A stretch of 23,899 nucleotides of DNA from a virus. Both the position numbers and the translations under genes were made by a program. The stretch spans positions 1 through 23,899 of the IMG/VR virus record IMGVR_UViG_3300002137_000018; one strand, written 5' to 3'. Positions 2,715 to 22,356 of this stretch are shown here, piece after piece. Each line of letters begins with the position of its first letter. Within the stretch, counting starts at the first letter, position 1. The notes beneath the pieces are model-generated. The model saw nothing but the letters and a program-made list of their open reading frames with translations. It did no database searches and had not been told where the DNA came from.

Positions 2715-3168
2715 TGTCGTAATCTTCTGCGAGTTGTTTAAGTTCTTTTTTTGTAGATATTCCAGCAAGTTGTTCTACTTCCTTCATTTTCATATTAGGG
2801 TGTATTTGAGATAACAATTTAATTGCTGCATTGTTATTGCCTTCTTTTTTCTTAAAGCCGATATAAGGATGGTATTCGATCTTGCCTGTTGCACCACTCA
2901 TGCAAAGTAGTTGCCACATTAATTGCGGATGGCCATTTTCTTTTCCAACACCGATATCGTTAAAGTGTTTGTTATAATATTCATTAGTTTTAAACACAGC
3001 AAGTTCTTGTGCTTCTCTATTACCTTGCACTGTACTTACATATCTGTTCAATAGCCAGAAGCTAACTTGTTTACGTTCTTCATCAGTCAGTTCTTTCCAA
3101 ACGCTCTTTGCGTTCATATCAACTGCTGCAAGTATATCTTTTATTGGTAGCTTTTTTTCTTGTGCCAT
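2698..3168 (-). CDS. Conserved T4-like phage protein, possibly replication-related
   Basis: 156 aa, ATG at 3168. It is soluble and helical. Visible segments are LPIKDILAAVD, WLLNRYVSTV, TNEYYNKHF, HPQLMWQLLCMSG, EYHPYIGFKKK and a C-terminal ISTKKELKQLAEDYDID helix. The pattern of an N-R-Y motif early, Y-N in the middle and a KKELK helix at the end loosely recalls the small clamp-loader subunit gp62 of marine T4-like phages, but this is a weak resemblance and I do not assign it. It overlaps the 3' end of kdsB by 28 nt. An A7 run near its end (2746-2752 on the minus strand) lies where its frame overlaps the zinc-finger-like gene. Confidence 0.6.
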   Translation of the reverse strand: MAQEKKLPIKDILAAVDMNAKSVWKELTDEERKQVSFWLLNRYVSTVQGNREAQELAVFKTNEYYNKHFNDIGVGKENGHPQLMWQLLCMSGATGKIEYHPYIGFKKKEGNNNAAIKLLSQIHPNMKMKEVEQLAGISTKKELKQLAEDYDIDIKL

Positions 3169-3827
3169 ATGTCTATATCCTGAGGAGTATTAATCTCTGT
3201 ACCTTTATAGTATACAGGATTTATTCCGATTTGCCAACCGTTTTTGAGCCAGCGTAGCTGTTCAAGTTGCTCAATTGTTTCTTCTTGTGTTACAGACAAT
3301 GTAGGATATAGTTGCAATGCATCACGCTTGTATCCATATACTCCCAAGTGCCAACTACCGTAACCTGTAATGCCTCTACCAAACCAAAGTGCATGTTCGC
3401 TTGCGTGTACACACTTTACAGTGTTAGGATCGTCTTGTAGCTCTTTAGGCATAGTTGTGTATACTGTTGAAACACTATAGTACTTTAACAATGTTTCTAC
3501 TTTAGATATTGCTTCAGCAGTAATGTCTGGCATATCACCTTGTACATTTATAAACTTATTATACTTGCTAAAGAAGTCATTTGTAATAGCACCGGCACAT
3601 CGTTCTGTACCGTTTGCATAATCAGTTTCATCAATCCAGCAGTTATCTGAGCCAAACAAGTTAAAGATACGCAAGTCATCAGTTAGTACATACGTTGGTA
3701 TCGTAGACGCTACACAAGCGTCATACACCCGTCTAATCATAGGAACACCGTCTAACAGTGCTAGAGGTTTGCCTGGAAAGCGTGTGCTACTGTATCTAGC
3801 GGGTATAAGAATAGCGGTGGATGTCAT
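3141..3827 (-). CDS. kdsB: CMP-Kdo synthetase (3-deoxy-manno-octulosonate cytidylyltransferase)
   Basis: KdsB activates Kdo with CTP to give CMP-Kdo and pyrophosphate, the donor for Kdo transferases in lipopolysaccharide or capsule synthesis; it is a cytosolic GT-A-like nucleotidyltransferase. Family signatures are in order: the nucleotide-binding loop IPARYSSTRFPGKPL at residues 8-22, ANGTERCA at 71-78, NVQGDMP at 94-100 (usually NVQGDEP), the EQLEQLRWL segment near 190, and the C-terminal INTPQDID. The length of 228 aa is slightly shorter than the ~250 aa of bacterial KdsB. Its start overlaps the end of kdsA by 32 nt, so the two are almost certainly co-expressed. The Glu-to-Met change in the NVQGDEP motif is the only notable deviation. 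Confidence in the family is high; activity is inferred. Confidence 0.93.
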   Translation of the reverse strand: MTSTAILIPARYSSTRFPGKPLALLDGVPMIRRVYDACVASTIPTYVLTDDLRIFNLFGSDNCWIDETDYANGTERCAGAITNDFFSKYNKFINVQGDMPDITAEAISKVETLLKYYSVSTVYTTMPKELQDDPNTVKCVHASEHALWFGRGITGYGSWHLGVYGYKRDALQLYPTLSVTQEETIEQLEQLRWLKNGWQIGINPVYYKGTEINTPQDIDIWHKKKSYQ

Positions 3828-4569
3828 CTATTACTCCTTCAAAATCTGTTAAGTGTAACATGTTAGGGCCGTCGCTGGGTGCAGCATCAGGCTCTTGGTG
3901 TACTTCTAGAAAAAAGTTACTAACACCCAAGGCACTAGCTGCACGACATAAGCCAGGCACATAACACCTATTCCCGCCGCTGCTACTTCCATTGCCACCT
4001 GGCTTTTGTACACTGTGCGTGGCATCCAACACAATAGGCACGTTATAAGTATTAAGCATATAATCAATGCCGGTAAAATCAACAACCAAGGTATTATATC
4101 CAAAGCTAGTTCCTCTCTCTGTTATCCAAACTTCTGCGTCTCCAGTTTTACTTAGTATTCCGGCGACATCCCACGGAGCAAGGAACTGACCTTTTTTAAT
4201 ATTAATAGGCATACCAGTTTCACAAGCACGTTGAATTAGATCTGTTTGACGGCAAAGGAAAGCAGGAATCTGTAGTACGTCAACAGCATCTGGATATGCA
4301 CCCATAGCGTCAATCTGTCCTCTAGTATGTACGTCAGTAAGAATCTTTAGGCCAGGAATTTCTTTCTTCATAGACTCAAAGTCTTGCATAGTTTGTGCTA
4401 GTCCAACACCACGCTTGCCTTGCATACTACTACGGTTTGCTTTGTCGTAACTGGCTTTGTAATAGTATTCAATGTTGGGATACTTTGCACACGCTCTTGC
4501 ACAATGCTCTGCGATCATCATGCTATGTTCTAATGACTCATGTTGACATGGTCCTGCTATAATTCTCAT
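3796..4569 (-). CDS. kdsA: Kdo-8-phosphate synthase (metal-dependent type)
   Basis: KdsA condenses phosphoenolpyruvate with D-arabinose-5-phosphate to form Kdo-8-phosphate. The whole family pattern is present in 257 aa: AGPCQHES at 5-12, YKASYDKANRSS at 37-48, IPAFLCRQ at 101-108, KKGQFLAPWD at 125-134, ATHSVQ at 183-188, EVHQEPDAAPSDGPNM at 222-237. Cys8, His185, Glu222 and Asp233 correspond to the metal ligands of the metal-dependent class (Aquifex type) rather than the Asn-containing metal-independent E. coli type. The ATG overlaps the stop of the SGNH hydrolase (ATGA) and its end overlaps kdsB. The arabinose-5-phosphate isomerase and Kdo-8-P phosphatase needed for a complete pathway are not in this window, so host enzymes or genes elsewhere in the phage must supply them. 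Confidence 0.95.
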   Translation of the reverse strand: MRIIAGPCQHESLEHSMMIAEHCARACAKYPNIEYYYKASYDKANRSSMQGKRGVGLAQTMQDFESMKKEIPGLKILTDVHTRGQIDAMGAYPDAVDVLQIPAFLCRQTDLIQRACETGMPINIKKGQFLAPWDVAGILSKTGDAEVWITERGTSFGYNTLVVDFTGIDYMLNTYNVPIVLDATHSVQKPGGNGSSSGGNRCYVPGLCRAASALGVSNFFLEVHQEPDAAPSDGPNMLHLTDFEGVIDDIHRYSYTR

Positions 4570-5165
4570 TGCGTAATCCTTTTGTAAAATGTTTCTGCTA
4601 TTGCCTTATGTGCTTCTATTCCTGGGTGTCCATTATCTAATGCAATATCAATTTTTCTAAGTACTTTAAAATTTATATCAAATAACAACGGATGTATAAT
4701 GCTTTCGCAACTTGAATGAAACTGTTTTATTCCTAGTGACTTAAGATATAAATTTGCATAATCAATTCTATGATTAGTTTCGATCATATGATCAACATTG
4801 TTGTACAGGTATCTAAAATAATTCATAGAACGTCTATTTTTCGCCCACGGTGCAACAGCATTATGCCCATGTGAAGTCCAGTCTTGATCACCGTCTTTAT
4901 CTATAATGCACCATCTATCTACATAACTCCAAAGTACAATAACTATATCATCATCTTGAAATTCAGTATTGCGTATTACATGTGAGATTAATTTATTTGA
5001 TGCACCAGGTACACCTTTATTTACACACTCAATGTTTAGTTTTTCTGCTAATACAGATGGCCAAGAAAATTTACTTGCAGGAGGAGCTGCTGTATTTTTT
5101 TTAAATTTAGTATCAGGCAACGCTTGTCCGTATGTATTACTACAACCAAATGCAACTAATCTCAT
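4566..5165 (-). CDS. SGNH/GDSL-type hydrolase
   Basis: 199 aa with the SGNH blocks in order: FGCSNTYG (nucleophile Ser9), NKGVPGASN at 49-57 supplying the Gly/Asn oxyanion residues, a hydrophobic strand DDIVIVLWSYVDRW, and LDNGHPG with Asp177-x-x-His180 as the remaining triad residues. Such enzymes are esterases or acyltransferases; in sugar clusters they often remove or transfer O-acetyl groups on polysaccharides. There is no signal peptide, so it should act in the cytoplasm or in the virion. It overlaps kdsA and the upstream small gene by ATGA junctions, which ties it to the Kdo genes. The exact substrate is unknown. Confidence 0.82.
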   Translation of the reverse strand: MRLVAFGCSNTYGQALPDTKFKKNTAAPPASKFSWPSVLAEKLNIECVNKGVPGASNKLISHVIRNTEFQDDDIVIVLWSYVDRWCIIDKDGDQDWTSHGHNAVAPWAKNRRSMNYFRYLYNNVDHMIETNHRIDYANLYLKSLGIKQFHSSCESIIHPLLFDINFKVLRKIDIALDNGHPGIEAHKAIAETFYKRITQ

Positions 5166-5925: not shown

Positions 5926-7389
5926 TTAATTCCAGTCGATTTTTTCAATTGTAAATGGGTACTGTGCTTCGTTGTAAAACTTTTTACGCTGAGTTAGGTG
6001 CCGCTTCGCAAACTTGCACGTTGAAGTCAAGTCCCATATTTGTACGAAGTCTTTGTCTTTTGCCTTACGAACGCCTCTACCAATACTTTGAATTACCCGA
6101 ACAAAACTTTTTCCAGGTTCGAGAAGTACAAGATTAAAAATCCTAGGTATATTAAGGCCCACTGCCGCAACTCCGTAGGTTGCGATAATGACCTCATTAG
6201 TACCTTCACGAATTGTATCATATGTTTCTTTCCTGTCTTTAACTTTAACTGCGCCACTTACAAAAGTGCTGCCAGGCATAAGTTTTTGTAGTTCTTGTCC
6301 AGCACTAATCCTATCCACTAAGATAAGTGTGTTACCAGTCTGTGATACCTTGTTCATCATCTTACCAATGTATGCTAGTCTTGCGGTATCTGTTGTTAGA
6401 TATTTTAATTCTGCTTGATAATCAGTATGTGCTACAATATCAATTAACTGACAGATGTTAACGTGACAATCTGATAGCACACCTTTGTCCTGCAATTCTT
6501 TTGCCGTAATACTTCCAATAACTGGACCTAGGCTTGCATGAATACTTTCAAACTCAAACTTCTCTCTGGGTATAGTGCCTGTAAGTCCCCAGCGAATCGG
6601 CGCATTCTTTAGATTGCGTGTCAGTAAATTTTTAAGTACTTCGGCCTTTGCCTGGTGAACCTCGTCAACAATAACAGCACTAACGCCTTCTAAGAATTCT
6701 GCAAGTCCTAATACTGCACTACCGTCTTTATGTTTCTTATCTAGGATGTTTAGTGATTGCCAAGTACAAATAGTGTGTGTCTTGTTAAGCATTTTTCTGT
6801 CACCAAAGTAAACGCCTACATCAAGGCCGCAGTTGATATAGTCTTCTTCAGTTTGTTCAACGAGACTTTTGTTAGGTACAATAACAATGCTTCGGCCGTA
6901 CGGCTCGACCATGTGCGATAATGTTGCTGTAGTAATTGTCTTGCCTGCGCCAGTAGCAATCTGTTGCAAGCTCTGTGGATTAGCTAGAAAGTTATTAATT
7001 GCTTCTACTTGATAGTCACGCAGAATAATTTCTGTACCTGCTACCGGATGCCCTTCTGGCCAGCACACTCCTTGGTCTGCCCAATATCGTTCTGTAACTG
7101 GAGTAAAGTTTAATTTAATAGGGTGTCTGTGATCTTGAATGTCTACAATTTCTACATTGTTCTTTTGTAAAATATCACAAACAACGTCAAGATGATTAAC
7201 ATAACCACTGCCGCCAATACCAAAGAACGCAACCTTGCCGTCCCAACGTCCAAGTTTGTATTGTGGCATATGCTTTGCATACGGCACTTCAAACTTAAGA
7301 GCATTTGCTAGTTTGCGACGGATGTCAACATCAAGGCCTTCAATCTTGATGTTGACTTCGTCTTCAATTATTAGTTTGCACGTTGCCAT
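5926..7389 (-). CDS. uvsW: UvsW-like superfamily 2 helicase
   Basis: T4 UvsW is an RNA/DNA and branched-DNA helicase that removes R-loops, shuts off origin replication and processes recombination intermediates. This 487-aa protein has the same length class (T4 ~500 aa) and SF2 motifs in order: Q/I-region RDYQVEA at 124-130, Walker A ATGAGKT at 145-151, Walker B DEVH at 242-245, GLTGT at 268-272, late RecA2 motif GVAAVGLNIP around 406-415, and motif VI QSIGRGVRK at 434-442. The N-terminal ~100 residues form the small T4-like DNA-binding lobe, containing LGRWDGKVAFF. It begins one base inside the stop of the preceding 406-aa gene (TAATG), indicating translational coupling. Confidence 0.93.
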   Translation of the reverse strand: MATCKLIIEDEVNIKIEGLDVDIRRKLANALKFEVPYAKHMPQYKLGRWDGKVAFFGIGGSGYVNHLDVVCDILQKNNVEIVDIQDHRHPIKLNFTPVTERYWADQGVCWPEGHPVAGTEIILRDYQVEAINNFLANPQSLQQIATGAGKTITTATLSHMVEPYGRSIVIVPNKSLVEQTEEDYINCGLDVGVYFGDRKMLNKTHTICTWQSLNILDKKHKDGSAVLGLAEFLEGVSAVIVDEVHQAKAEVLKNLLTRNLKNAPIRWGLTGTIPREKFEFESIHASLGPVIGSITAKELQDKGVLSDCHVNICQLIDIVAHTDYQAELKYLTTDTARLAYIGKMMNKVSQTGNTLILVDRISAGQELQKLMPGSTFVSGAVKVKDRKETYDTIREGTNEVIIATYGVAAVGLNIPRIFNLVLLEPGKSFVRVIQSIGRGVRKAKDKDFVQIWDLTSTCKFAKRHLTQRKKFYNEAQYPFTIEKIDWN

Positions 7390-8615: not shown

Positions 8616-8644
8616 AGTATAACGTATTACAGCTTATCTGTCAA
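8616..8644 (-). promoter_or_regulatory. Sigma70-type promoter for the uvsW-kdsAB operon
   Basis: On the minus strand a perfect -35 box TTGACA (8644-8639) and a TATACT -10 box (8621-8616) are separated by exactly 17 bp. The expected start point, seven bases after the -10, is 8609, which is the A of the ATG of the 406-aa gene, so the message would be leaderless. The -35 lies in the last codons of the upstream glycosyltransferase gene (its stop is at 8629-8627). This is the strongest promoter seen in the window and probably makes the block 8609-1071 an early transcription unit using host sigma factor. Confidence 0.8.
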
Positions 8645-9478
8645 GAGGTTAAGTGGTATTCCTTGTGATATTTCTTGCACTGTCCATTCAGTATGAGCAT
8701 AGTCATTGAGCCATTGTTGTCTGTTGGGCATTAGAGGTGCTTCTATATCGTGCATGAAGTCTATGTCATTACCGGCGTCATACGCTAGCGATGCGGGCCC
8801 TACAAACGCTGGAACGCCGTTGAGTATACTGTGTATGCCCGGATTACTACTGTAGCTTACAACAGCGTGTACGCGGTCAAATTGCATGTCGTAGTCGTCA
8901 TATGTGCCGTTTAACTTTACAGGGTTCTGTCTATAGACATTTTTAAATTCGTTTTCAATATGCGGTAAGGAACAACGAGGATGTGGCCGGAATAGTATAG
9001 GACGGTCAGTATGTGCTCTTATAGCATCTATTGTATTCATTACCCATTTGCTCATACTTGGCATCTTCTGCCACTGCAAGCTCTTGTCATGCTGTCCGCA
9101 AATAAGAATAAACTCTCCGTCTGTGCGCCAATGCGTTAACGACAGGCCCAATAAACGATGGCGATCATCATTATTACCACAGGGCCCAAAGTAAGCATCT
9201 CTATTAATCCCATTGAGTCCTACCTTCCATGTTGTGCCTCTATTTATTCCGCCAACTTCTAAAACTATAGTCGGTTTAGCGTTGGCGGTGTTTCTCTCCC
9301 AGATAGCTTTGTTAGCAGCCATTCTTCCGCTAAACAGTACGCTCCAAATAACATCAACGTCGGCGTCATCGCTATTATCGACACAAGTAAAACCAAGGGA
9401 GTGACAACCCAATCTAAAAGCATCAAAGATAGGTTTGCTATTAAGTGCGCCATATTGTGTCCATAAACTAAATTTCAT
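8627..9478 (-). CDS. KpsC/KpsS-like glycosyltransferase family protein, paralog 1
   Basis: 283 aa from ATG 9478 (MKFSLWTQYGALNS); an in-frame codon 30 bases upstream is a less likely start. The N-terminal half has a Rossmann-like beginning, then EVGGINRGTTWKVGLNGINR (74-93) and a strand GEFILICGQ before the second domain. The second domain carries HTDRPILFRPHPR (156-168), VHAVVSYSSNPGIHSILNGVPAF (203-225), IEAPL, and a final W-x-x-x-E-x-x-x-G signature. The R-x-HP motif and the S-S...G-x-P-x-F motif recall the GT-B fold Kdo transferases KpsC/KpsS; the similarity is motif-level. Three related genes follow at 10890-13571. It faces a divergent plus-strand glycosyltransferase. A role in adding a sugar, perhaps Kdo, to a surface glycan is inferred from kdsA/kdsB nearby. 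Confidence 0.65.
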   Translation of the reverse strand: MKFSLWTQYGALNSKPIFDAFRLGCHSLGFTCVDNSDDADVDVIWSVLFSGRMAANKAIWERNTANAKPTIVLEVGGINRGTTWKVGLNGINRDAYFGPCGNNDDRHRLLGLSLTHWRTDGEFILICGQHDKSLQWQKMPSMSKWVMNTIDAIRAHTDRPILFRPHPRCSLPHIENEFKNVYRQNPVKLNGTYDDYDMQFDRVHAVVSYSSNPGIHSILNGVPAFVGPASLAYDAGNDIDFMHDIEAPLMPNRQQWLNDYAHTEWTVQEISQGIPLNLLTDKL

Positions 9479-9480
9479 CG

Positions 9481-9511
9481 TGTAAATACCATATAATATA
9501 TTTAACAAGGA
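9481..9511 (+). promoter_or_regulatory. Candidate promoter and ribosome site for plus-strand pair
   Basis: The 40-bp divergent gap holds TGTAAATA (9481-9488, late-like box), a TATAAT hexamer (9492-9497) without a good -35 partner, and an AAGGA ribosome site (9507-9511) eight bases before the ATG at 9519. Either box could drive the plus-strand genes; this is weakly supported. The ribosome site is convincing. Confidence 0.4.
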
Positions 9512-9518
9512 TTAGCGC

Positions 9519-10361
9519 ATGTCAAGCATAACTGTGGTTACAACATTTCATCCAGCAGGATTAGTAAAATACGGACAAAGATTTTTAGATAGTTTTGCAG
9601 CTAGAGTTGACAAGCGTATCAAACTATTTGTGTATGCAGAAGATTGTGATCCAGTTAATCCAGATCCAACTCGTATTGTAATTCTTGATGCAAAAAAAGC
9701 ATTACCAAAACTAAATGCGTTTAAGGCCAAGTGGGACAACGTTCCTAAAGCCAATGGCGACATTAGCAAGGACCCTGTACGTAGTTTACGCAAGGACAGT
9801 AACAAGGCGTTTAAATGGGATGCTGTACGCTTTGCTAATAAGACATATGCTGTGTATGACGCTTGTATACGCTCTAAGGGGTGGTGTGTGTGGATGGATG
9901 CTGATACCTTTGTGCATAGCGATTGGAGCTACGAACAGTTTAGTGAGCTGTTACCTAACAATGCTTACATCACGTATGTTGGTAGAGGTAAAGGATCACA
10001 GACTTGGCCAGAGTGTGGCTTCTACGGTATGAACCTAAATCATCCTGTGTGTCACAGTTTCTTAGAAGACTTTGAACGTATGTACGAAGATGCAGACAAC
10101 GGTATCTTTACACTAGACGAATGGCACGACAGTTATGTGTTTGGCGAACTACTAAAGAAGTATAGCGAATTTCCGTCACACGACTACTCAGCTGAAATGT
10201 ATTTGCGTGAAGCAAAGACAGGAGGTGGCGGACATCCTTTAATCAATGGACCACTAGGTAAATGGATTGACCATATGAAGGGCGGACGTAAAGACCAAGG
10301 CAAGAGTGACAGAAAAGATATCATGGTAAATAGAACTGAAGATTATTGGAGATTAAAATGA
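9519..10361 (+). CDS. GT-A type glycosyltransferase (DxD)
   Basis: 280 aa. It starts with a strand SSITVVTTFHPAGL and contains the metal/nucleotide-sugar motif WCVWMDADTFV, with Asp127-x-Asp129, then GFYGMNLNHP and WHDSYVF, the order expected of GT-A glycosyltransferases. The C-terminus has a conserved-looking GGGGHPLINGPLG followed by a basic stretch (HMKGGRKDQGKSDRKD). No membrane anchor or signal peptide. It is encoded opposite to the rest of the glycan island and overlaps the next gene (a methyltransferase) by ATGA. It probably transfers a hexose-type sugar from a nucleotide donor; acceptor unknown. Confidence 0.72.
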   Translation: MSSITVVTTFHPAGLVKYGQRFLDSFAARVDKRIKLFVYAEDCDPVNPDPTRIVILDAKKALPKLNAFKAKWDNVPKANGDISKDPVRSLRKDSNKAFKWDAVRFANKTYAVYDACIRSKGWCVWMDADTFVHSDWSYEQFSELLPNNAYITYVGRGKGSQTWPECGFYGMNLNHPVCHSFLEDFERMYEDADNGIFTLDEWHDSYVFGELLKKYSEFPSHDYSAEMYLREAKTGGGGHPLINGPLGKWIDHMKGGRKDQGKSDRKDIMVNRTEDYWRLK

Positions 10362-10900
10362 AATCATTTATTTTTGATGTAATGAAAGATGTTATCGGTA
10401 ATAGCACGCCTGCATTTATTGGTGAAATTGGAACCCACAAAGGTGCCACTGCAACTCAATTTATCGATCTTTTATCACCCAGGGTAGATAATATTTTGTA
10501 TTACGGGTATGATGTATTTGACGACAAGGTAGGAAATTTAGAGTTTCATAGAGCTGAAAGAAACGGCAAAGGTGGCGTTACTCAACTAACAGCAGAAACA
10601 ACACTTAATAAACTTAAAGCACGTCACAATAATTTAGAATATAAACTACATAGAGGGTATACAACTACTACGTTAATTAAACCTGTTGTATTTGATTTTA
10701 TCTATATCGACGGCGGCCATAGTTACGAAACAGTAAAGCACGATTATTCAATGGTTAAAGAAAGCAAATTAATTGTATTTGATGATTTAAATTTACCGGG
10801 AGTAAAACAATTTATTGATGAATTAATTAGAGACGGAGTTGATGTCGAAATAGTTAATACTGTTGTTTCAAAACACATCTGGGGTGTTATTAGGAATTAA
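10358..10900 (+). CDS. SAM-dependent methyltransferase, class I (Methyltransf_24-like)
   Basis: 180 aa starting at ATG 10358, which overlaps the TGA of the glycosyltransferase; a TTG twelve bases upstream is in frame but unnecessary. The SAM-binding motif I region is FIGEIGTHKGATATQF (20-35), and FDFIYIDGGHSYETVKHDY (112-130) is the D-G-x-H-x-Y-x-x-V-x-x-D signature of sugar or rhamnosyl O-methyltransferase-like enzymes, followed by KLIVFDDLN. In a glycan cluster it most likely O-methylates a sugar. It ends 11 nt inside the convergent minus-strand paralog 2. Substrate unknown. Confidence 0.75.
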   Translation: MKSFIFDVMKDVIGNSTPAFIGEIGTHKGATATQFIDLLSPRVDNILYYGYDVFDDKVGNLEFHRAERNGKGGVTQLTAETTLNKLKARHNNLEYKLHRGYTTTTLIKPVVFDFIYIDGGHSYETVKHDYSMVKESKLIVFDDLNLPGVKQFIDELIRDGVDVEIVNTVVSKHIWGVIRN

Positions 10901-11828
10901 TAAACTGACGCATATGTGCCCAGGCACTTCCGTTAGCTAGTTCTTCAAATTTCCAATGAAACATTGATATTCTTTCAGCCCAATGTTGCCTATCATATAG
11001 GATAGGAGTTTCAATTTTTTCTATATCATTTGCAATTTCAGAACATTGACTTTTGTCTTTATCTGCAACAAATATAGGAATACCTTCTATTGCAGCAGCT
11101 ACAACTGGGCTTGAATTATAATTTATTGCTGCCCAACAATTTTTTAAATCATCTATTATTGATCGATTATTAGATAACCTAATGGTGTTAGATAACGGTA
11201 ATCTGCATTTAGGATTACCAGGAGTTAATAGTAGTTTACTTTGTTTATCTCCAGGATGTAATCTTATAACAATAGGACGATCAGTATACTGTCTTATTTT
11301 TGTTATTGTTTCAATAGCCCAGTCTTGAATATTAACGTTTCCCATACTCCAGCCGCCGTTTCGTTGTAAGCAAAGAAGTATGTGATTACCCGTGGTCCTA
11401 TAATCCTTTAACGATATATTTAAATCTTGTTGTATTTGTTTCCAGCGGCTAGAATCTATTTCTGTATCACAGTATATGCCAGTATTAGGAAATACACCAT
11501 TAAAACTATATCTTAGATAATGGTGTGGGTGATTTGTAGTGTTAGCATATAAAAATAAATTACTGTCTGCTGTAATAACATATTTGTTATTTTTTAATTG
11601 ATTATCAATTACAGTTCTTCTTAGCTTAAGATGCGGAGAAGAACTAACATTGTGCCCCAACCAGCCTTGTATAATACCAACATCAGACATTGCATAGTTA
11701 TGTGTGTTTACATCTATTGCATTGTCTCCGGCAGCTGTTACTCCTAAAGAAAACAATCTCAATATGTCTACTTTTTCTTGACTTTTAGAGTTTGGAATAG
11801 ACTTATGATAACACGCTACATTTTTCAT
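10890..11828 (-). CDS. KpsC/KpsS-like glycosyltransferase family protein, paralog 2
   Basis: 312 aa from ATG 11828 (MKNVACYHKSIPNS), chosen because it makes the usual ATGA overlap with the upstream gene; a further upstream ATG at 11876 would overlap 52 nt. The N-terminal domain ends with YSFNGVFPNTGIYC, then HILLCLQRNGGWS (149-161), WAIETITKIRQYTDRPIVIRLHPG (170-193; HP at 191-192), a CWAAINYNSSPVVAAAIEGIPIFVADK segment, IETPIL, and the closing W-x-F-E-E...G-x-x-W. The same skeleton occurs in the three other members. It is probably a cytoplasmic transferase acting on a nucleotide-activated sugar. Substrate and linkage are unknown. Confidence 0.65.
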   Translation of the reverse strand: MKNVACYHKSIPNSKSQEKVDILRLFSLGVTAAGDNAIDVNTHNYAMSDVGIIQGWLGHNVSSSPHLKLRRTVIDNQLKNNKYVITADSNLFLYANTTNHPHHYLRYSFNGVFPNTGIYCDTEIDSSRWKQIQQDLNISLKDYRTTGNHILLCLQRNGGWSMGNVNIQDWAIETITKIRQYTDRPIVIRLHPGDKQSKLLLTPGNPKCRLPLSNTIRLSNNRSIIDDLKNCWAAINYNSSPVVAAAIEGIPIFVADKDKSQCSEIANDIEKIETPILYDRQHWAERISMFHWKFEELANGSAWAHMRQFINS

Positions 11829-12811
11829 TGCTCTGCTAGTATTCGATCTATTGAACTTTTTAAATGGTCCCAACATCTACCAGATTCCATTTCTTCGGGT
11901 GTCCATTGGCAATATGCTAAATTGCTAAGCCATTGCTGTACATGATTATCAGCAGCTAGATTTAAATTTTCAATATTGCTTAACTTACGTTCTGCTATAT
12001 TCCAAGCAAAATTTCCTTCGTCACATGCTATAACAGGGATACCTCTTACTACTGCATCAATTGATAATCCGCTAGTGTATGCAACTATACAATACGCATC
12101 TAGTATCTGATCTTCCCACGGTACTTCTCTACCGTTAACAAAAGAAATATTTTTATAATTTCCAAATAGAAAGTACCTAAATAGTTCTTCATGATTGCTC
12201 CATCCCTTTTCGCTAACTCCTGGATGTGTTCGTATTTCTATTGGTCTATCTGTATACTGTCTAAGAGTGTGTACAGTATCTTTGCACCATTGATTAATAT
12301 CATTATTTCTTAAACTAGCATCGCCACCGAGTTGTAAAGCAATTACAATTTTATTACCGTTACTTTTATTCCATCCATTATAATTAATTCCTAGGGCTGC
12401 TAGACGATCGTTTGGATAATCTATATCTTCTCCAAAAGTAGCAGCACAATTTAAAAAACCATTTATTCCTACTCGTTGATGTTTATTAGGTTGAAATACT
12501 TTACGACCTAATAACGGTGTTTCGATACAAATAAAACAGTTAGAGTGTTCGACAATACTTGTTCTAATTATGTGATGAATATTTGATCGATCCGGTTTCC
12601 AACTTCCAAACATAACTGCTACATTACACTTGGTATATTTTTCATCATAAGAATAATCAACTCCGTCTTTACTATTACGTTTGCTTATCCTAGACATAAA
12701 ATTATTTTCTTGTTTGTTTTCTGCTTTAACTTTAATACCGTCGTGCATTGCTCGGAGAATTTCTCTTTCGTGATTATGACCTGCGGTCATCATAAAAACT
12801 TTAACTTTCAT
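11825..12811 (-). CDS. KpsC/KpsS-like glycosyltransferase family protein, paralog 3
   Basis: 328 aa, ATG 12811, overlapping the end of paralog 4 by 11 nt and starting MKVKVFMMTAGHNHERE. The first domain contains CNVAVMFGSWKPDRSN (62-77) and HQRVGINGFLN. The second domain has KIVIALQLGGDAS (154-166), WCKDTVHTLRQYTDRPIEIRTHPG (HP at 196-197), AYCIVAYTSGLSIDAVVRGIPVIACDEGN and a terminal WTPEEMESGRCWDHL, the clearest W-x-x-x-E...G-x-x-W ending of the four. Order and spacing equal those of the neighbours, so the set arose by gene duplication. GT-B fold transferase is inferred; specificity unknown. Confidence 0.65.
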   Translation of the reverse strand: MKVKVFMMTAGHNHEREILRAMHDGIKVKAENKQENNFMSRISKRNSKDGVDYSYDEKYTKCNVAVMFGSWKPDRSNIHHIIRTSIVEHSNCFICIETPLLGRKVFQPNKHQRVGINGFLNCAATFGEDIDYPNDRLAALGINYNGWNKSNGNKIVIALQLGGDASLRNNDINQWCKDTVHTLRQYTDRPIEIRTHPGVSEKGWSNHEELFRYFLFGNYKNISFVNGREVPWEDQILDAYCIVAYTSGLSIDAVVRGIPVIACDEGNFAWNIAERKLSNIENLNLAADNHVQQWLSNLAYCQWTPEEMESGRCWDHLKSSIDRILAEQ

Positions 12812-13571
12812 GTAATATTCTCCAAGCTGTGTTATTCTTCATTTCGTCATTGTGAAATTGTCCGTAAGCTAAATGACAAGCCCATTTATATATTTTATCT
12901 TTATCTTGGTGTGTCGGAGTCTCAATCAGACTTAGATCTTTGTTGCACACAGGGTCTGCTGCTGTAGGTGCAAGCGTAAAAGCCGGAACACCATATAGTA
13001 CACTTTCAACTGCTGCTATACTCTGATAGGTTACAAGGGCATGGCAGTCAGTTAAATCTTCAAATATAGTACGTGTAATGCGTTGCTGTCTCGGTTGTTT
13101 ATCACGTACAAGAATAGGCCTGTCTGTATGTTTCTTAATTTCTGCAACCGTTTCATTAACCCAATGACTTCTATCTATGCCATAAAACATGCAGGGCTTT
13201 TCACTAGGCGTAACTAGTAAAATATGTTTACCTTGCTTGCGATGTTCTATTGGATAGTCTAACCGTTTCCATCTGTCATCAGATCGATTAATTATCTCGT
13301 TATGCTGCACGTCGTTCTTAACTATGCGATGCCAAACTTTCCAACCCTGAGGATTAGCTTTAGATTTATAGTTTCCTACATAACCACTGTCCATATAGTA
13401 GAAGGGGTGGTTATTTTTCCAACACCACTGTATAAGTTTACGTTTGCCCATACTACGAATTAATATTGGACTATCACCAAAATTGTAATTGTAATCGTGT
13501 ATAGGTAAGTTTGCACCTTGTGCAAACATGTTAACATATTCGTCAGTTAAGTTTTTACTTAGACAGATCAT
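12801..13571 (-). CDS. KpsC/KpsS-like family protein, paralog 4, diverged active-site motif
   Basis: 256 aa, the shortest member; the N-terminal domain is reduced (MICLSKNLTDEYVNMF...). Conserved parts are HILLVTPSE (116-124), WVNETVAEIKKHTDRPILVRDKQPR (137-161), CHALVTYQSIAAVESVLYGVPAFTLAPTAADPV, IETPT and a C-terminal WACHLAYGQFHNDEMKNNTAW. Where the other three have R-x-HP after TDRP, this protein has RDKQP: the His is missing. That could mean changed specificity or loss of activity. It overlaps the upstream methyltransferase by ATGA and paralog 3 by 11 nt. Confidence 0.62.
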   Translation of the reverse strand: MICLSKNLTDEYVNMFAQGANLPIHDYNYNFGDSPILIRSMGKRKLIQWCWKNNHPFYYMDSGYVGNYKSKANPQGWKVWHRIVKNDVQHNEIINRSDDRWKRLDYPIEHRKQGKHILLVTPSEKPCMFYGIDRSHWVNETVAEIKKHTDRPILVRDKQPRQQRITRTIFEDLTDCHALVTYQSIAAVESVLYGVPAFTLAPTAADPVCNKDLSLIETPTHQDKDKIYKWACHLAYGQFHNDEMKNNTAWRILHES

Positions 13572-14041
13572 TTATAAAACTCTACGTGTAAGTGTTTACT
13601 GTTATCCCCGTTAAAAGATTTATAATTAACAAAATTCTTTTTTGTTACTAGTTTTTCCATACTATAAGTATCATAGCCGCTTTTATGAACGTCCCAAACA
13701 TCATTAAAGTCTCCACGTTGCCCGCCGTATATATTCTTTGCAGCCCGCGGATCTCCACTAATCCACTGATTTACATGAAGCAACATATTTGGTAACATCA
13801 TTTCAATCCTACCGCCTGGCTTAAGAATTTTATGCCATACTTCTAAAAGATATTCACCTTGGACAAACGTAAGATGCTCAAAGAAATGTCTTGAAAATAT
13901 TTCTTCTACTGAGTTTTCATCAACTAGTTTATTAATTTCCCATGCTGTACACACAAAGTCAATACCAGGAAGATCTCTAATATCCTGCTGTAAGAAATCT
14001 GTCTTAGTTGGAGTTTCTCCTCCACCAAATTCAATTTTCAT
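13568..14041 (-). CDS. SAM-dependent methyltransferase (small, class I)
   Basis: 157 aa from ATG 14041. It begins with motif I KIEFGGGETPTKTDF, then DIRDLPGIDFVCTAWEINKL as the motif II region, and SRHFFEHLTFVQGEYLLEVWHKILKPGGRIEMMLPN, the H-F-E-H...L-K-P-G-G pattern of Methyltransf_11-type enzymes. The C-terminal part (KKNFVNYKSFNG...HVEFYK) matches the short family that appears in polysaccharide clusters. A 33-nt gap separates it from the upstream GT; this is the largest gap within the glycan operon. Likely a sugar or glycolipid methyltransferase; substrate unknown. Confidence 0.75.
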   Translation of the reverse strand: MKIEFGGGETPTKTDFLQQDIRDLPGIDFVCTAWEINKLVDENSVEEIFSRHFFEHLTFVQGEYLLEVWHKILKPGGRIEMMLPNMLLHVNQWISGDPRAAKNIYGGQRGDFNDVWDVHKSGYDTYSMEKLVTKKNFVNYKSFNGDNSKHLHVEFYK

Positions 14042-14074: not shown

Positions 14075-14746
14075 TTAGCCATTCATCATATCCTGTAGTT
14101 CATCTTTCCACAACAGATGATGCTCGCAATTACGATAGTTTTCAAACCACGGTCCGCCTTCGGTGTAGTGCAGTGCTTTAGGAGTACCTTCTTTATACCA
14201 ACCTGCAAGATAGTTCCACTCATATGGCAGTTCGCCAATTTCTTCATCTTTGAGCCAACTAAAGCGATGTAAGTATGCTCCATTAATTTCTGGACTGTTA
14301 ACTAAATCTTGATCTAATATCTTATTGCTAGGATGACTGCAATTAAACATCATTACACTTGACCAATTTTTACGTGGATAAACAGTTTGTGTTTGTCCGT
14401 CCATCTTTGTGCCTTCGGCTGGAGTGTAGTCGTGTTTAACACACATTACTGCATACCGATCATCTGCTAACTCAAATAATTCTTTAACATCGTTTAAGAA
14501 AATAATATCACTGTCACAGAATATTGCCCATCCTTGGAAGTTCATAAGTTCTGGTACTAGGTATCGAGTAAATGTAAATTCAGTACTTGCAAGTTTATCG
14601 TTTGGTCTAGTATACCATCCAGCATTTCGTAAATCTTTTTGTACCAACGGTCGAACAACTATATCCTTGTTTCGACGTATAATACTATGCTTACATACTT
14701 GGTATGCAATATCTTCTCTAGTGTCGTAACCTACAAATACTTTCAT
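14075..14746 (-). CDS. Glycosyltransferase with DxD motif (GT8-like)
   Basis: 223 aa. The N-terminus MKVFVGYDTREDIAYQVCKHSI is typical of GT8-like and related phage glycosyltransferases; WAIFCDSDIIFL (73-84) holds Asp78-Ser-Asp80, the metal and nucleotide-sugar site. LASTEFTFTRYLVPEL lies before it, and LHYTEGGPWFENYR is near the end, like the H-x-x-G-x-x-P closing motif of GT8. It starts one base inside the stop of the cytidylyltransferase/cupin fusion (TAATG). It likely transfers a hexose in the same glycan pathway; substrate unknown. Confidence 0.77.
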   Translation of the reverse strand: MKVFVGYDTREDIAYQVCKHSIIRRNKDIVVRPLVQKDLRNAGWYTRPNDKLASTEFTFTRYLVPELMNFQGWAIFCDSDIIFLNDVKELFELADDRYAVMCVKHDYTPAEGTKMDGQTQTVYPRKNWSSVMMFNCSHPSNKILDQDLVNSPEINGAYLHRFSWLKDEEIGELPYEWNYLAGWYKEGTPKALHYTEGGPWFENYRNCEHHLLWKDELQDMMNG

Positions 14747-15522
14747 TAACCTCTTCTTTCTATATCTTCTTCAATGCACTCGTCGCCCCATTGTATTTCA
14801 AGGATGTGTGCATTTTCTGTGCCAGTGTTAGATGCTAAGTGCCAAACTTCTTTGCCAATTTCATATGGCGTTCCGTGTGGCTTTAATTTTAGATTAGATA
14901 CGTTTCCGTTCCACTCAGTTTGCATGTCAACTACACCTTCTAGTATCATCCACTGCTCTGAACGTTTAAAATGTTTTTGATCGCTTAGTGATTTGCCTGG
15001 ATAAATTACAAGTTCTTTTACTTTGTAACCGTGTGCAGGGTTGTGATCTAGCACACGCCAGTAACCCCATTGCCGTTCAGTCTTTTGTGTTTTCCATTCG
15101 TCTAGTATCCAACTGCTACTGTTGGCTTTGTTTTCACCGCCTATACCAAACGCAAACTCTACATCTGATCTATCACCGTATGAAGCATATTCGGGTGTTG
15201 TAGTGTTTGTTCTATCGCCGCCGTTGGCAAACACAACACCCCAATTACTTCCTTTAGTTGTTAGTACCTGAATAATTGCTGCACATGAACTATTATCATC
15301 GTCGTTAAATCCAATAACTTCATCGACTACTGCAAGTTCTTTAATGATTGCTGCACGTTCTTCAAAGGGCATAAACGGTCTACCCTTCTTACGAGTAAGC
15401 CAATCGTCTGAATTTAGACCAACAACTAAATGATCACCTAATTCCTTTGCTGCTTTGAAATAGGCAATGTGCCCACTGTGTAAAGGGTCAAATCCTCCGG
15501 TGACTAAAACTACTTTGCTCAT
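14746..15522 (-). CDS. Nucleotidylyltransferase-cupin fusion (HldE/TagD-like + ManC-C-like)
   Basis: 258 aa with two domains. Residues 1-~130 are a cytidylyl/adenylyltransferase of the HxGH type: TGGFDPLHSGHIAYFKAAKELGD with His15-Ser-Gly-His18, VGLNSDDWL, FEERAAII and GGDRTN around 101-106. Residues ~150-250 look like the mannose-6-phosphate isomerase type II cupin found at the C-terminus of ManC: RQWGYWRVLDHN, YKVKELVIYPGKSLSDQKHFKRSEQWMILEG. One metal-ligand His is retained at 184 and the SEQW motif replaces AEHW. The protein probably activates a sugar phosphate (heptose- or glycerol-like by the N-terminal domain) and isomerises or binds a sugar by the cupin. It heads the minus-strand glycan operon, eight bases after the UvsY-like gene. 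Confidence 0.78.
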   Translation of the reverse strand: MSKVVLVTGGFDPLHSGHIAYFKAAKELGDHLVVGLNSDDWLTRKKGRPFMPFEERAAIIKELAVVDEVIGFNDDDNSSCAAIIQVLTTKGSNWGVVFANGGDRTNTTTPEYASYGDRSDVEFAFGIGGENKANSSSWILDEWKTQKTERQWGYWRVLDHNPAHGYKVKELVIYPGKSLSDQKHFKRSEQWMILEGVVDMQTEWNGNVSNLKLKPHGTPYEIGKEVWHLASNTGTENAHILEIQWGDECIEEDIERRG

Positions 15523-16228: not shown

Positions 16229-17314
16229 TTATTCCTCGTAAGTTTCTTCAATTAAATCAGTTGTATCGCTTTCAACAACATCACCGGTATTTACCACTAC
16301 TGCTGTTTTTTCATTATACTCTGACATAATCATATCTAACTTAGGACCATTCCATTGCTTACGATAATCAAGATGCTCGACTCCTGCTAAGTCAATATAC
16401 TTGAGACGATTGCCTTGCTTAACTAGCAAGCCTTTCTTCTCAAACAATTCAACTAGACCACTATACGGATTCATACCAGTTTCATAAGGAATCTTAACCT
16501 GTACACCTTCGAAAGGTTTTGAATAGCGTGTTTTCATTACTTTACAGCCAGCACGGATACCCATAACTTCTGTAATCTTATTGCCGTCTTCATCTTCTTT
16601 TAACTTCATCTTCTTCATTGCAACAACAATACTTGATGCATAGATAAAGCCACTACCGCCCGAGATCTTGTCATCTGGGTCAAACATATCTTGTGAAGCA
16701 TATGTGTGGTTAGTACAAACTAAGCCTACATTGTAGCTACCAATCATGTTTACAGTGTTACGAACTAATGAAGTTAGTGCTTTAGGCTTACGACCCATAT
16801 CACCCTTCATATCACCCTTTTGGAACTGATCAACATCAGTAGGTGTTAGCAACATACCCAAGCTGTCAATTACAAACAATACTTTAGGACGATCTTCTTC
16901 GTTCATTGCTTTATAGTCGATCATGAAAGTTGATATAGTTTTTGCTACATCATCAATCATTGCCATATTAAGTTTAAGCAATTTGTCTTCGCCTGTCTGC
17001 ACACCTAGTGCATGCAACCAGCTTTCGTCAAGTGCATTCTCTGAGTCAATTAGTACTACAAAGATACCTTGATCCTGTGCGTCTTTTACAATGTTACCTG
17101 AACAGAAATAACTCTTACCTGCTCCTGATTCACCTGCAAACACAGTAACCTTACCTAGTGGAACACCTTTGTGAAAGTCTCCTGAGATAAGAAAGTTTAG
17201 TGCGTATGATCCTGTTGAAATCCAATCAGTAGGATCGTTAAATCCAGCACTCACGCCTGAGATACTTTTAGTCAAGTCCTTGCGGAACTTACTAACATCA
17301 AATGATTTAGCCAT
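16229..17314 (-). CDS. uvsX: UvsX, RecA-family recombinase
   Basis: UvsX forms the presynaptic filament for strand exchange and recombination-dependent replication in T4. The 361-aa protein (T4 UvsX ~390) has Walker A GESGAGKS at 61-68, the catalytic region IDSENALDESW (88-98), Walker B KVLFVIDSLGML at 143-154, QFQKGDMKGDMGRKPKALTSLVRN, loop region TNHTYASQ and the glycine-rich SGGSGFIYASS, followed by the typical phage C-terminal domain (KTRYSKPFEGVQVKIPYETGMNPYSG). The acidic tail DLIEETYEE is normal. The start ATG 17314 has AGGAG five to six bases upstream. Downstream genes follow with 2-3 base gaps, so it is co-translated with the acidic and UvsY-like genes. Confidence 0.95.
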   Translation of the reverse strand: MAKSFDVSKFRKDLTKSISGVSAGFNDPTDWISTGSYALNFLISGDFHKGVPLGKVTVFAGESGAGKSYFCSGNIVKDAQDQGIFVVLIDSENALDESWLHALGVQTGEDKLLKLNMAMIDDVAKTISTFMIDYKAMNEEDRPKVLFVIDSLGMLLTPTDVDQFQKGDMKGDMGRKPKALTSLVRNTVNMIGSYNVGLVCTNHTYASQDMFDPDDKISGGSGFIYASSIVVAMKKMKLKEDEDGNKITEVMGIRAGCKVMKTRYSKPFEGVQVKIPYETGMNPYSGLVELFEKKGLLVKQGNRLKYIDLAGVEHLDYRKQWNGPKLDMIMSEYNEKTAVVVNTGDVVESDTTDLIEETYEE

Positions 17315-17393: not shown

Positions 17394-18413
17394 TTACTGT
17401 TGTTGTTGACGTGAGCGGATCATTGCAAGAATGTCGCTTGCGCCGCCTGTCGCTGCTGGTGCTGCTTCTGCTACTGGAGCAGGTGCTGCTTGTGCTACTT
17501 CTTCATTGCTTTGGAAAGGAATGTTGTTAGCTACTGGAGCAGGTGCTGCTTGTGCTACTGGAGCACTTTGGCTAGTTGCAGTTGCACCTGCACTTGCGGC
17601 TTTCATCGGATCGCCTGTACGAGCTTGCATACCGCTTGGACGGAAGTATTGGCTCCAACGATCTGCATCATATGCTTCACCATCTACTGATGCTTCAAAC
17701 ATTTCTTTCATCACTTTAATAGCGACTTCATCTGGCTTCTTAGGAAGGAAGTCATTCATGTTATACAATCCATGAGTCTGAACTGCTAACATTTCTGCAT
17801 CACTCAGCGGACGCTCGCGACGTGCCCAATTACTTGTGCCGTAGTCTGCATAACCACCTTTAGATGTTTTGTTAAGACGGAAGTCTACACCAGCAGTATA
17901 ATCTGTTGGTAATTCTTCCATATCCGGATCCATCAATGCTGCTTTAATAATCTGAAACACTTGAGGACCAATAATGAATCGACGAATCGGATTCTCTGGC
18001 TTTTCTTCTTGCAACGGATTCTCTGTTACAAAACCTTGGAAAATGTATGAACGCTTTTTCCAGTACTTACGACCCATATCTTCCAATGATGCGTCTTTAA
18101 ACCAGCCGCGTACTTCTTGTAGAATGCCGCATGATTCGCCATACATTTCCATACATGGAACTTGTACTTGTACAGGGCGTGAATCAGTTTCGCCCTTAAC
18201 TCCTGCGAATGGAAGTTTGATAATTAAACGCTCTTTCCAGAAGAAAGTGTTTTCATTATCGCCATCTGGAAGGAAACGCATCGTTGCCGATTCGCCTTCT
18301 TTAATATTCCAAAATGGGTAAATTGCGTTATCACCGCCGCTTTGTGTGTTGTTACCACCTGTGCGTGATTCTTGCTCTTTGAGCTTTGCTCGGATTTCTG
18401 CTAATGATGCCAT
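17394..18413 (-). CDS. gp32: gp32-like single-stranded DNA-binding protein
   Basis: 339 aa. The N-terminal basic LAST-like helix region is SLAEIRAKLKEQESR; the OB-fold core has YPFWNIKEGESATMRFLPDGD, RPVQVQVPCMEMYGESCGI (probable zinc-region Cys), YWKKRSYIFQGFV, NPIRRFIIGPQVFQIIKAAL and PTDYTAGVDFRLNKTSKGGYADY, matching gp32 of marine T4-like phages. The tail (residues ~265-339) is unusual: Ala/Pro/Gln-rich, with two copies of VAQAAPAPVA, ending in SDILAMIRSRQQQQ instead of a strongly acidic tip. gp32 coats ssDNA, recruits the replisome and controls its own translation in T4. The gene has an AGGAGG ribosome site, its own sigma70-type promoter and structured leader. Confidence 0.94.
   Translation of the reverse strand: MASLAEIRAKLKEQESRTGGNNTQSGGDNAIYPFWNIKEGESATMRFLPDGDNENTFFWKERLIIKLPFAGVKGETDSRPVQVQVPCMEMYGESCGILQEVRGWFKDASLEDMGRKYWKKRSYIFQGFVTENPLQEEKPENPIRRFIIGPQVFQIIKAALMDPDMEELPTDYTAGVDFRLNKTSKGGYADYGTSNWARRERPLSDAEMLAVQTHGLYNMNDFLPKKPDEVAIKVMKEMFEASVDGEAYDADRWSQYFRPSGMQARTGDPMKAASAGATATSQSAPVAQAAPAPVANNIPFQSNEEVAQAAPAPVAEAAPAATGGASDILAMIRSRQQQQ
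17470..17559. repeat. Direct repeat in the gp32 tail coding region
   Basis: A 30-bp stretch occurs at 17470-17499 and again, identically, at 17530-17559, with a 60-bp period. It encodes the repeated VAQAAPAPVA tail segment of gp32. Recent duplication or slippage is likely. Confidence 0.8.
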
Positions 18414-20729: not shown

Positions 20730-20737
20730 TATTTATC
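20730..20737 (-). promoter_or_regulatory. T4-late-like promoter box GATAAATA
   Basis: The minus strand reads TTGATAAATATATTATAATG; the box overlaps the terminase stop codon (TGATAA) and lies seven bases before the ATG of the LysM gene. It matches the T4 late consensus except the first base. Confidence 0.5.
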
Positions 20738-22316
20738 AATAGTTTGTGCTTATGAAGATCGGCATTGGTGCATCATAATCTTCCATATTTTCTGCTTGTG
20801 TAAATGTGTTGTAGATTCTAGGATCCCAGTCTTTTAATACCGCCATCATTCTTATTGCTAGTAGCGTGGCACTAACAAGATCATCTGTTTGGCCTGCTTT
20901 TGATTGATAACTTGATCCGGTTGCAACATAGTTTTTAAGTTCTGACAGGAACGGTTTACTGTGTATAACCATTTTATCATTTTCAATCATAGTTTTAAGT
21001 CTACTACAAGCAGTAATTTTACTGCCGTGCGTAGTGTTGAAACCTTTACGGAATTTCCTGACGTGTCCTTTTCTAATTGGTTCGCTAACAAATAGACCTG
21101 GAATGTTCTCTTCACCGAAGTCGTTTATAACGATTAGTGCTGCTTCGCCGATACCGTTGTTTTCAACACTCCAGTAAATTCCGTTCTGGTTCCCTGTTTC
21201 CTGTGCAAGATACTTACAGATATCTGCAAGCACTCTTATCTGCCCGGGAATAGCAGTTGTATTATGTTGCCACTCTGCAACTTGTTCGTAACTTGGTAAT
21301 TCAAATACTTGTATAGCAGCATTATCGCCACCCGTTCCCATACTAGGATCAAGTGCTACTGCATATGTATATTGACTTGTAGGTTTCTTATACCAACGAG
21401 TTTGCCCCATATTAACTAACGGAGGCTTGCCTTCCATACTAGCAAGTTTAATACTGTTGATCAGTGTTTCGTCAAATACAAGGAATTCGCAGTCATATTC
21501 ACGACGGAAGCGTTCTTCGCCAATTCGTCCTAGTTCTTCTTGTTTCCATTTCTCATCACGGTCTGGATGTTCTGTCCAATAACTACGGAAACTATGGAAA
21601 CCGTTTAATCCTACTTCTTGTTCGTTGCCGTGTTCGTCAAACTTGTCTTCTGCTTGTTTCCAAATAGTAGCAAATGTATCTTCATCACTGTTTGGAGTTG
21701 ATGTAAGAATAGCACGACCACCAGTTGCTAGTGTAGGAGATATTGATGTCCAAAAATCTGTAGCAACATTAGGTTGTACAAATGCAAACTCGTCACAGTA
21801 TAGTAACGAGATACTCATACCACGTCCTGTGTTGCCTGTTGTAGTAGCACTAACAATACGTGAACCATTTTCAAATTCAATACTACCTTTGTTGTAGTTA
21901 GTAACACCTGCTCTAATATAGTCTGGGCATAATTCGTAGATATAACGAATACGCTGCATAATCTCTTGCGCACCTGTGTACTTGTGTGCAGCAATAAGAA
22001 TAGTTTGATCTGGCGTAAACATTGCATACCAGGCTAGGTAAACAGCAGCACAGGTAGTTTTGCCTGTTTGTCTAGGTAGCATATTAATATTAAATCGGAA
22101 GTTGTGATAACTTTGTAACAAGCGTTCTTGATATTCATACGGATCAAATAATAACTTACCTTTTACTGGATGTTGTATATATGCAAACTTACGAGAAAAA
22201 TACATATACCCATTAACTGGATCCATACACTTCATAAGGTCGTTAATTTGCGATTCAGAGAAAGTCTCCTTACGATTTGCTTTTTTAATTAATACGCCGT
22301 CTAGTGCTTTTGCCAT
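20736..22316 (-). CDS. terL: Terminase large subunit (gp17-like)
   Basis: TerL is the ATP-driven DNA packaging motor and headful nuclease. With ATG 22316 (MAKALDGVLIKK) the protein is 526 aa; a TTG 15 bases upstream lies over the promoter box and is unlikely. ATPase: MLPRQTGKTTCAA (Walker A, ~79-91), Walker B ISLLYCDEFAF with Asp175-Glu176, coupling motif ILTSTPNS. RNase H-like nuclease: YAVALDPSMGTGGD with Asp323, SVENNGIGE, and TDDLVSATLLA supplying the other acidic residues. Length is shorter than T4 gp17 (~610). No intron or frameshift. It sits behind a terminator and late-type box, so it has its own late transcription unit. Confidence 0.96.
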   Translation of the reverse strand: MAKALDGVLIKKANRKETFSESQINDLMKCMDPVNGYMYFSRKFAYIQHPVKGKLLFDPYEYQERLLQSYHNFRFNINMLPRQTGKTTCAAVYLAWYAMFTPDQTILIAAHKYTGAQEIMQRIRYIYELCPDYIRAGVTNYNKGSIEFENGSRIVSATTTGNTGRGMSISLLYCDEFAFVQPNVATDFWTSISPTLATGGRAILTSTPNSDEDTFATIWKQAEDKFDEHGNEQEVGLNGFHSFRSYWTEHPDRDEKWKQEELGRIGEERFRREYDCEFLVFDETLINSIKLASMEGKPPLVNMGQTRWYKKPTSQYTYAVALDPSMGTGGDNAAIQVFELPSYEQVAEWQHNTTAIPGQIRVLADICKYLAQETGNQNGIYWSVENNGIGEAALIVINDFGEENIPGLFVSEPIRKGHVRKFRKGFNTTHGSKITACSRLKTMIENDKMVIHSKPFLSELKNYVATGSSYQSKAGQTDDLVSATLLAIRMMAVLKDWDPRIYNTFTQAENMEDYDAPMPIFISTNY

Positions 22317-22320
22317 ACTG

Positions 22321-22328
22321 TATTTACT
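22321..22328 (-). promoter_or_regulatory. T4-late-like promoter box AGTAAATA before terL
   Basis: Minus strand AGTAAATACAGTATG places the box four bases before the terL ATG, the same spacing as for the structural gene at the left end. It directly follows the upstream terminator's U-tract. Confidence 0.5.
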
Positions 22329-22329
22329 C

Positions 22330-22356
22330 AAAAAAATAGACCCCTAAGGGCCTATT
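22330..22356 (-). terminator. Rho-independent terminator after the peptidoglycan-binding protein
   Basis: On the minus strand AATAGGCCC-TTAG-GGGTCTATT forms a 9-bp stem (one G-U pair) followed immediately by seven T's (22336-22330). It ends transcription from the gene stopping at 22378, just before terL. This is the best terminator in the window. Confidence 0.85.

Follow-up and report, generated by a model that had tools for sequence, protein, structure and literature searches.

A probable glycan module of T4-like phages encodes KpsC-like paralogs whose catalytic motifs differ by orthogroup

The 23.9-kb viral fragment analyzed here (IMG/VR record IMGVR_UViG_3300002137_000018, positions 1 to 23,899; hereafter the window) comes from an aquatic T4-like phage and carries four related genes, P0001 to P0004, on the minus strand between uvsX and uvsW. 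Do these genes encode an assembly line in which each paralog adds one residue of 3-deoxy-D-manno-oct-2-ulosonic acid (Kdo), as a preliminary description of the locus had proposed? We consider it probable, though well short of certain, that they represent a phage-borne branch of the KpsC/WbbB/KrkA superfamily within a cytosolic glycan module, in which P0003 transfers Kdo and its sisters have diverged. The proposal that every paralog adds one Kdo was unsupported, as the QXXXD nucleophile motif is confined to orthogroups C (P0003) and E, with Ser, Gly, or non-Asp residues in orthogroups A (P0001), B (P0002), and D (P0004). Homology, fold, motif distribution, and gene order were computed; donor, stereochemistry, and acceptor are what we infer.

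All four open reading frames (ORFs) were found where that description had placed them, at 8627..9478 (P0001), 10890..11876 (P0002), 11825..12811 (P0003), and 12801..13571 (P0004). Their paralogy was borne out as well, with P0003 retrieving the other three from the window at E = 4e-20, 7e-16, and 1.6e-6, and an alignment of the four proteins having 22 invariant columns. The genes at 12801, 11825, and 10890 do lie in tandem, head to tail, but two plus-strand genes stand between them and the gene at 8627. This plus-strand pair (9519-10900), encoding a glycosyltransferase-like protein and a methyltransferase, breaks the minus-strand cluster where some relatives have a fifth paralog, E. The motif skeleton thought to be common to all four stood with exceptions: P0004 reads TDRPILVRDKQP and lacks the HP, P0003 has IENL at the IE-A/T-P motif, and the final W of the W-ending is absent from P0001. 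The ORF of P0001 reaches a TTG at 9508, but the likelier start is the ATG at 9478; similarly, P0002 more likely begins at its second ATG, residue M17 at about 11828, where it overlaps the preceding gene's stop codon. These starts are preferred because relatives align from those points.

Searches of P0001 to P0004 against Pfam, PHROG(s), and NCBIfam gave no significant match, and none of the four matched Pfam PF05159 (Capsule_synth; gathering cut-off 20 bits). AlphaFold2 models were then built from the family alignment for P0003 (mean predicted local distance difference test score 94.5, predicted template modeling score 0.90) and P0001 (95.6 and 0.91). When the P0003 model was searched against the PDB with Foldseek, the first 18 matches were KrkA, WbbB, and KpsC, all of them retaining beta-Kdo transferases, the best being KrkA (9yfx, E = 9e-7); for P0001, the first 24 matches were all Kdo transferases. 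With VIA-align, P0003 superposed on KpsC 8fux with Z 14.7 over 245 residues at 3.8 Å, compared to Z 11.4 for the first other fold, and P0001 on KpsC 6mgc with Z 14.1 over 236 residues at 3.8 Å, compared to Z 10.2. Both models have the rare, modified GT-B fold of KpsC, WbbB, and KrkA, and the original guess of KpsC-like proteins was right at this level.

The suggested kinship with Capsule_synth proteins was likewise upheld. Two E paralogs exceed the PF05159 gathering score (24.9 bits in locus L041 and 21.7 bits in L056), and in a profile alignment the QLGGDASLR of P0003 falls on QLNSDAQIR, and its RTHP on KNHP, of bacterial Capsule_synth proteins; the E-values of this profile comparison are those of single comparisons rather than database-wide. 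The fetched Capsule_synth genes showing the paired motif carry QXXXD together with K/R-x-HP, the regular expression itself having demanded both. Sequence evidence supports kinship with Kdo transferases weakly, but independently of the fold.

The family was sampled from viral-contig loci plus phage records. In the first 90 loci, an iterative profile recovered 300 family ORFs, of which 211 were distinct; over 180 loci, the totals were 557 and 393. In a tree built from 134 representatives, A, B, C, and D formed separate, well-supported groups, as did a fifth, E, which is absent from the window. The phylogeny proposed as a check on the four genes therefore places them in separate, old orthogroups, whose duplications took place before these phages diverged. 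The genes follow a conserved order, uvsX - (E) - HldE/cupin - GT8 - D - (C) - B - (E) - GTx - A - uvsW - (kdsA - kdsB), in which A, B, and D are found in nearly every locus, and C, E, and kdsA/kdsB are variable. Many aquatic phages of T4-like type retain the orthogroups in the interval from uvsX to uvsW, and B is encoded by at least 596 viral stretches. More distant members are carried by Pelagibacter phage Mosig and Caulobacter phage CcrSC, two in each, and by one podovirus; 31 of 127 members have a weak match to DUF6716, a putative glycosyltransferase family. Three very divergent members (L051:9421-10221, L052:5139-5948, and L053:4351-5181) have neither QXXXD nor HP and sit on a long tree branch.

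A search for origins with orthogroup B alone returned phage-like contigs from metagenome-assembled genomes, along with one SAR11 chromosome. The SAR11 match is a lone B-type gene (L099:7968-8876, 47% identity) on a single-cell genome contig of 25% GC, adjoining a GMP-synthase-like gene amid housekeeping-like genes, and is apparently a chromosomal copy. The whole phage module, from uvsX to kdsA/kdsB, is present in two contigs (L100 and L101) of one Neomarinimicrobiota metagenome-assembled genome; their gene layout and coordinates are identical, a pattern suggestive of duplicate contigs or of phage sequence within the bin.

What chemistry might these proteins perform? In the three solved Kdo-transferase families, the nucleophilic Asp and a Gln lie within a QXXXD motif that is reported to be invariant among retaining Kdo transferases, and a covalent Kdo adduct on the Asp has been demonstrated in all three. 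The (K/R)XHP motif, which holds cytidine monophosphate (CMP), is common to GT99, GT107, and the sialyltransferases, while KrkA retains the HP and has Ser in place of the basic residue (PMC9587256, PMC10148158, PMC12887879). In the phage family, the state of these motifs is fixed by orthogroup. The Asp of QXXXD (D164) is present in all 25 C and all 26 E sequences; at the same position A has Ser (QHxxS in P0001; 82/82), B has Gly (QRxGGWS in P0002; 113/113), and D has Pro, Val, or Ser, with Asp in none of 114. RxHP is present in A (82/82; RPHP in P0001), B (112/112; with NSS in P0002), and C (25/25). Every A, B, C, and E sequence has the HP histidine (H196). In D it is replaced by Lys or Arg throughout (114/114), and this group has lost the Gln as well as this CMP-binding His (PxxKP and RxK in P0004, where QXXXD and HP are both gone). 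Arg194 is invariant in every sequence scored, and position 97 is Glu or Asp in all A to E sequences scored, making it a candidate general base by its place in the sequence.

Within the window, P0003 alone pairs QXXXD with RXHP, as the complete signature Q160-xxx-D164 and R194-x-H196-P197; orthogroup E pairs both too. This pairing makes P0003 a credible retaining CMP-Kdo transferase and, judged from its motifs and model, likely the best candidate for one in the window. We suggest that Asp164 would attack the donor, that Arg194, His196, and Pro197 together with Ser247 would hold CMP, and that a conserved acid, for which Glu97 is the candidate, would activate the acceptor, so that Kdo or a close ulosonic acid would most likely be moved from CMP-Kdo with retention. 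P0001 and P0002 look like CMP-sugar enzymes unable to use the known double displacement. Their nucleophile is lost, and the CMP clamp and candidate acid are kept; therefore another mechanism or donor is suggested, either direct inverting transfer or a donor other than CMP-Kdo. The donor site of P0004 seems to have been rebuilt, and with nucleophile and clamp both lost this protein might use a different donor or be non-catalytic. The best reading of A, B, and D is one of diverged sisters with another mechanism or donor. It seems to us unlikely that the sisters in which clamp and candidate base survive, as descendants or relatives of double-displacement enzymes, now use a CMP-ulosonic acid in a direct attack with inversion; if true, retaining and inverting Kdo transferases would work side by side, building a mixed-linkage Kdo glycan on the phage's own virion.

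The neighboring genes raise the possibility that P0001, P0002, and P0004 use some other sugar or polyol, with Kdo reserved for C and E. Such a substrate would come from the module's glycosyltransferases and the fusion of an HldE/RfaE-domain-II-like nucleotidyltransferase to a cupin (14746..15522, minus strand), which with the GT8-like glycosyltransferase (14075..14746, minus strand) belongs to the conserved module. We regard this as a serious possibility, if not the expected one. The HldE-cupin gene, usually with GT8, accompanies A, B, and D in most loci, even those lacking kdsA/kdsB, C, and E, and the loss of the CMP-binding His and Gln from D is in keeping with a different donor. Orthogroups A and B, however, have the CMP-sugar enzymes' RxHP clamp in all 82 and 112 sequences, and A retains the complete KpsC fold.

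Is Kdo itself available to the module? The kdsA and kdsB genes of the window proved genuine by curated family matches. KdsA, Kdo-8-phosphate synthase (3796..4569, minus strand), scored 320 bits with NF003543 against a cut-off of 242, and the divergent CMP-Kdo synthetase KdsB (3141..3827, minus strand) fell below the curated cut-off of its subfamily but above that of PF02348. The two genes are found in a subset of relatives, at the same site after uvsW. Phage kdsA and kdsB have already been reported among the viral genes of surface waters (PMC10653327). KdsC- and KdsD-type (SIS) genes were absent from eight long records; therefore the host would supply those steps and would itself have to be a bacterium that makes Kdo. 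In the scheme we favor, this phage's subclade would have more CMP-Kdo available through KdsA and KdsB, and the arabinose-5-phosphate and phosphatase steps would fall to host enzymes.

The donor might instead be a host-made CMP-ulosonic acid of the pseudaminic or legionaminic type, as for GT118, with kdsA/kdsB an unrelated addition after uvsW. The GT118 enzyme KpsS1 is a related pseudaminic acid (Pse) transferase (PMC12887879), A, B, and D persist without kdsA/kdsB in many phages, and the two kds genes form an insertion within an otherwise colinear stretch. We nonetheless find a non-Kdo donor doubtful. No second CMP-sugar synthetase was detected, as PF02348 found one kdsB-like gene per kds-bearing record searched, and in locus L017 kdsA and kdsB lie directly beside divergent family members.

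Several observations weigh against Kdo transfer by P0003 and its kin. Most long relatives retaining the paralogs lack kdsA/kdsB, including contigs of 186, 188, 149, and 148 kb with A, B, and D, as well as Mosig and CcrSC, kdsB having been tested in part of the records examined for kdsA. Conversely, L031, L061, L176, and others combine kdsA/kdsB with A, B, and D alone and lack any QXXXD member; Kdo may therefore serve A or B, or none of the paralogs, and such phages are the main argument against limiting Kdo use to C and E. Four phage records (G001 and G035-G037) carry C without kdsA/kdsB. Overall, the proteins are no more than about 10-15% identical to known Kdo transferases, the best PDB sequence-profile match, WbbB, was not significant (E = 0.033), and P0002 and P0004 were placed in the family by sequence homology alone. 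The co-occurrence of kds genes with C or E was also considered as evidence. The raw association had a Fisher p of about 0.02-0.03 (the larger table being hand-compiled), but it vanished after allowing for kinship and was rejected.

What, then, would the glycan be attached to? We propose that, after ancient duplications within a phage branch of this superfamily of modified GT-B enzymes with CMP-sugar donors, the paralogs would act in the cytosol of the infected cell with the GT8-like and GT-A-like glycosyltransferases, the HldE-like nucleotidyltransferase-cupin, and the methyltransferases to give a decorated glycan. By hydropathy, the only measure applied, no clear membrane protein was evident among the glycan genes of the module, and the acceptor is therefore probably cytosolic, most likely something such as a virion protein. 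One small hydrophobic ORF adjoins uvsW, outside the glycan genes. Virion decoration is our first choice, and modification of the host surface its main rival.

In that rival, a host lipopolysaccharide or capsule would be altered to stop other phages adsorbing, and virion proteins would not be involved. The known superfamily enzymes do make lipopolysaccharides and capsules (PMC9587256, PMC10148158, PMC12887879), and a SAR11 chromosome has the single B-type gene described above. The same hydropathy survey, however, revealed no clear flippase or exporter among the glycan genes, and the CcrSC members sit behind a tail-protein gene, and so we hold host surface modification to be possible but the lesser expectation.

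The position beside uvsX also suggests DNA as an acceptor, since T4 has a DNA glucosyltransferase gene near uvsX. A hydroxymethylase of the thymidylate-synthase type was found in none of nine records, among them contigs of 186 and 201 kb and the complete genomes of three phages, which disfavors DNA. Among the matches listed, moreover, the fold differs from that of the DNA glucosyltransferases, and glycosylation of DNA in the manner of T4 seems very improbable.

Several further genes of the window were assigned. A putative GT-A-like glycosyltransferase (9519..10361, plus strand) has a weak Glycos_transf_2 match and a WMDADTF motif, and its gene stays beside the P0001 to P0004 family in most relatives. 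It is followed by an S-adenosylmethionine-dependent methyltransferase (10346..10900, plus strand; Methyltransf_24), and a methyltransferase-like protein is encoded at 13568..14041 on the minus strand. UvsW lies at 5926-7389, and UvsX (16229-17314), a gp32-like protein (17394-18413), and the large terminase (20736-22331) were named from reading of the sequence. A GDSL/SGNH-like hydrolase (4566..5165, minus strand) has a weak Pfam match. Near the right end, the gene at 22378-23898 encodes many tandem PAGNNPDEADP-type repeats beside a peptidoglycan-binding-like segment.

The double displacement of retaining Kdo transferases has been called unique among glycosyltransferases and is known from a few bacterial enzymes (PMC12887879). 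The family described here adds a large viral branch in which the nucleophile has been naturally swapped for Ser, Gly, or other residues, fixed per orthogroup over hundreds of sequences, and such replacement makes the evolution of the mechanism directly testable. We found no description of this paralog family or its split catalytic residues in the literature searched. The locus offers a first point of entry into an unnamed glycan module that is flanked on either side by a core replication gene in widespread aquatic T4-like phages, and it seems to encode an assembly line for a glycan, run by enzymes that have diverged in their chemistry.

Among known systems, KpsS1 (GT118) belongs by description to the same superfamily and exemplifies a change of donor within it (PMC12887879), but no Pse synthetase was found in the phages searched. 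WbbB (GT99), the O-antigen beta-Kdo transferase, has the same CMP clamp, a Z of about 13, and the top, though not significant, PDB profile match; it differs in having a fused second glycosyltransferase, absent from the phage proteins, and uses Glu158 as general base. KpsC (GT107) and KpsS, the beta-Kdo transferases of group 2 capsules, resemble the phage proteins in a whole-length fold match (Z about 14), in the QXXXD and (K/R)XHP of P0003, and in the profile match to Capsule_synth proteins. Identity to them is about 11-15%, however, and the phage genes are clustered single-domain paralogs, with P0001, P0002, and P0004 lacking the nucleophile. KrkA (GT140), the Kdo transferase of the K13 capsule, is far apart in sequence and carries a ribosyltransferase that the single-domain phage protein lacks, but it is the top Foldseek match of P0003, whose conserved acid Glu97 lies where the third strand ends, a placement similar to that of KrkA Glu102.

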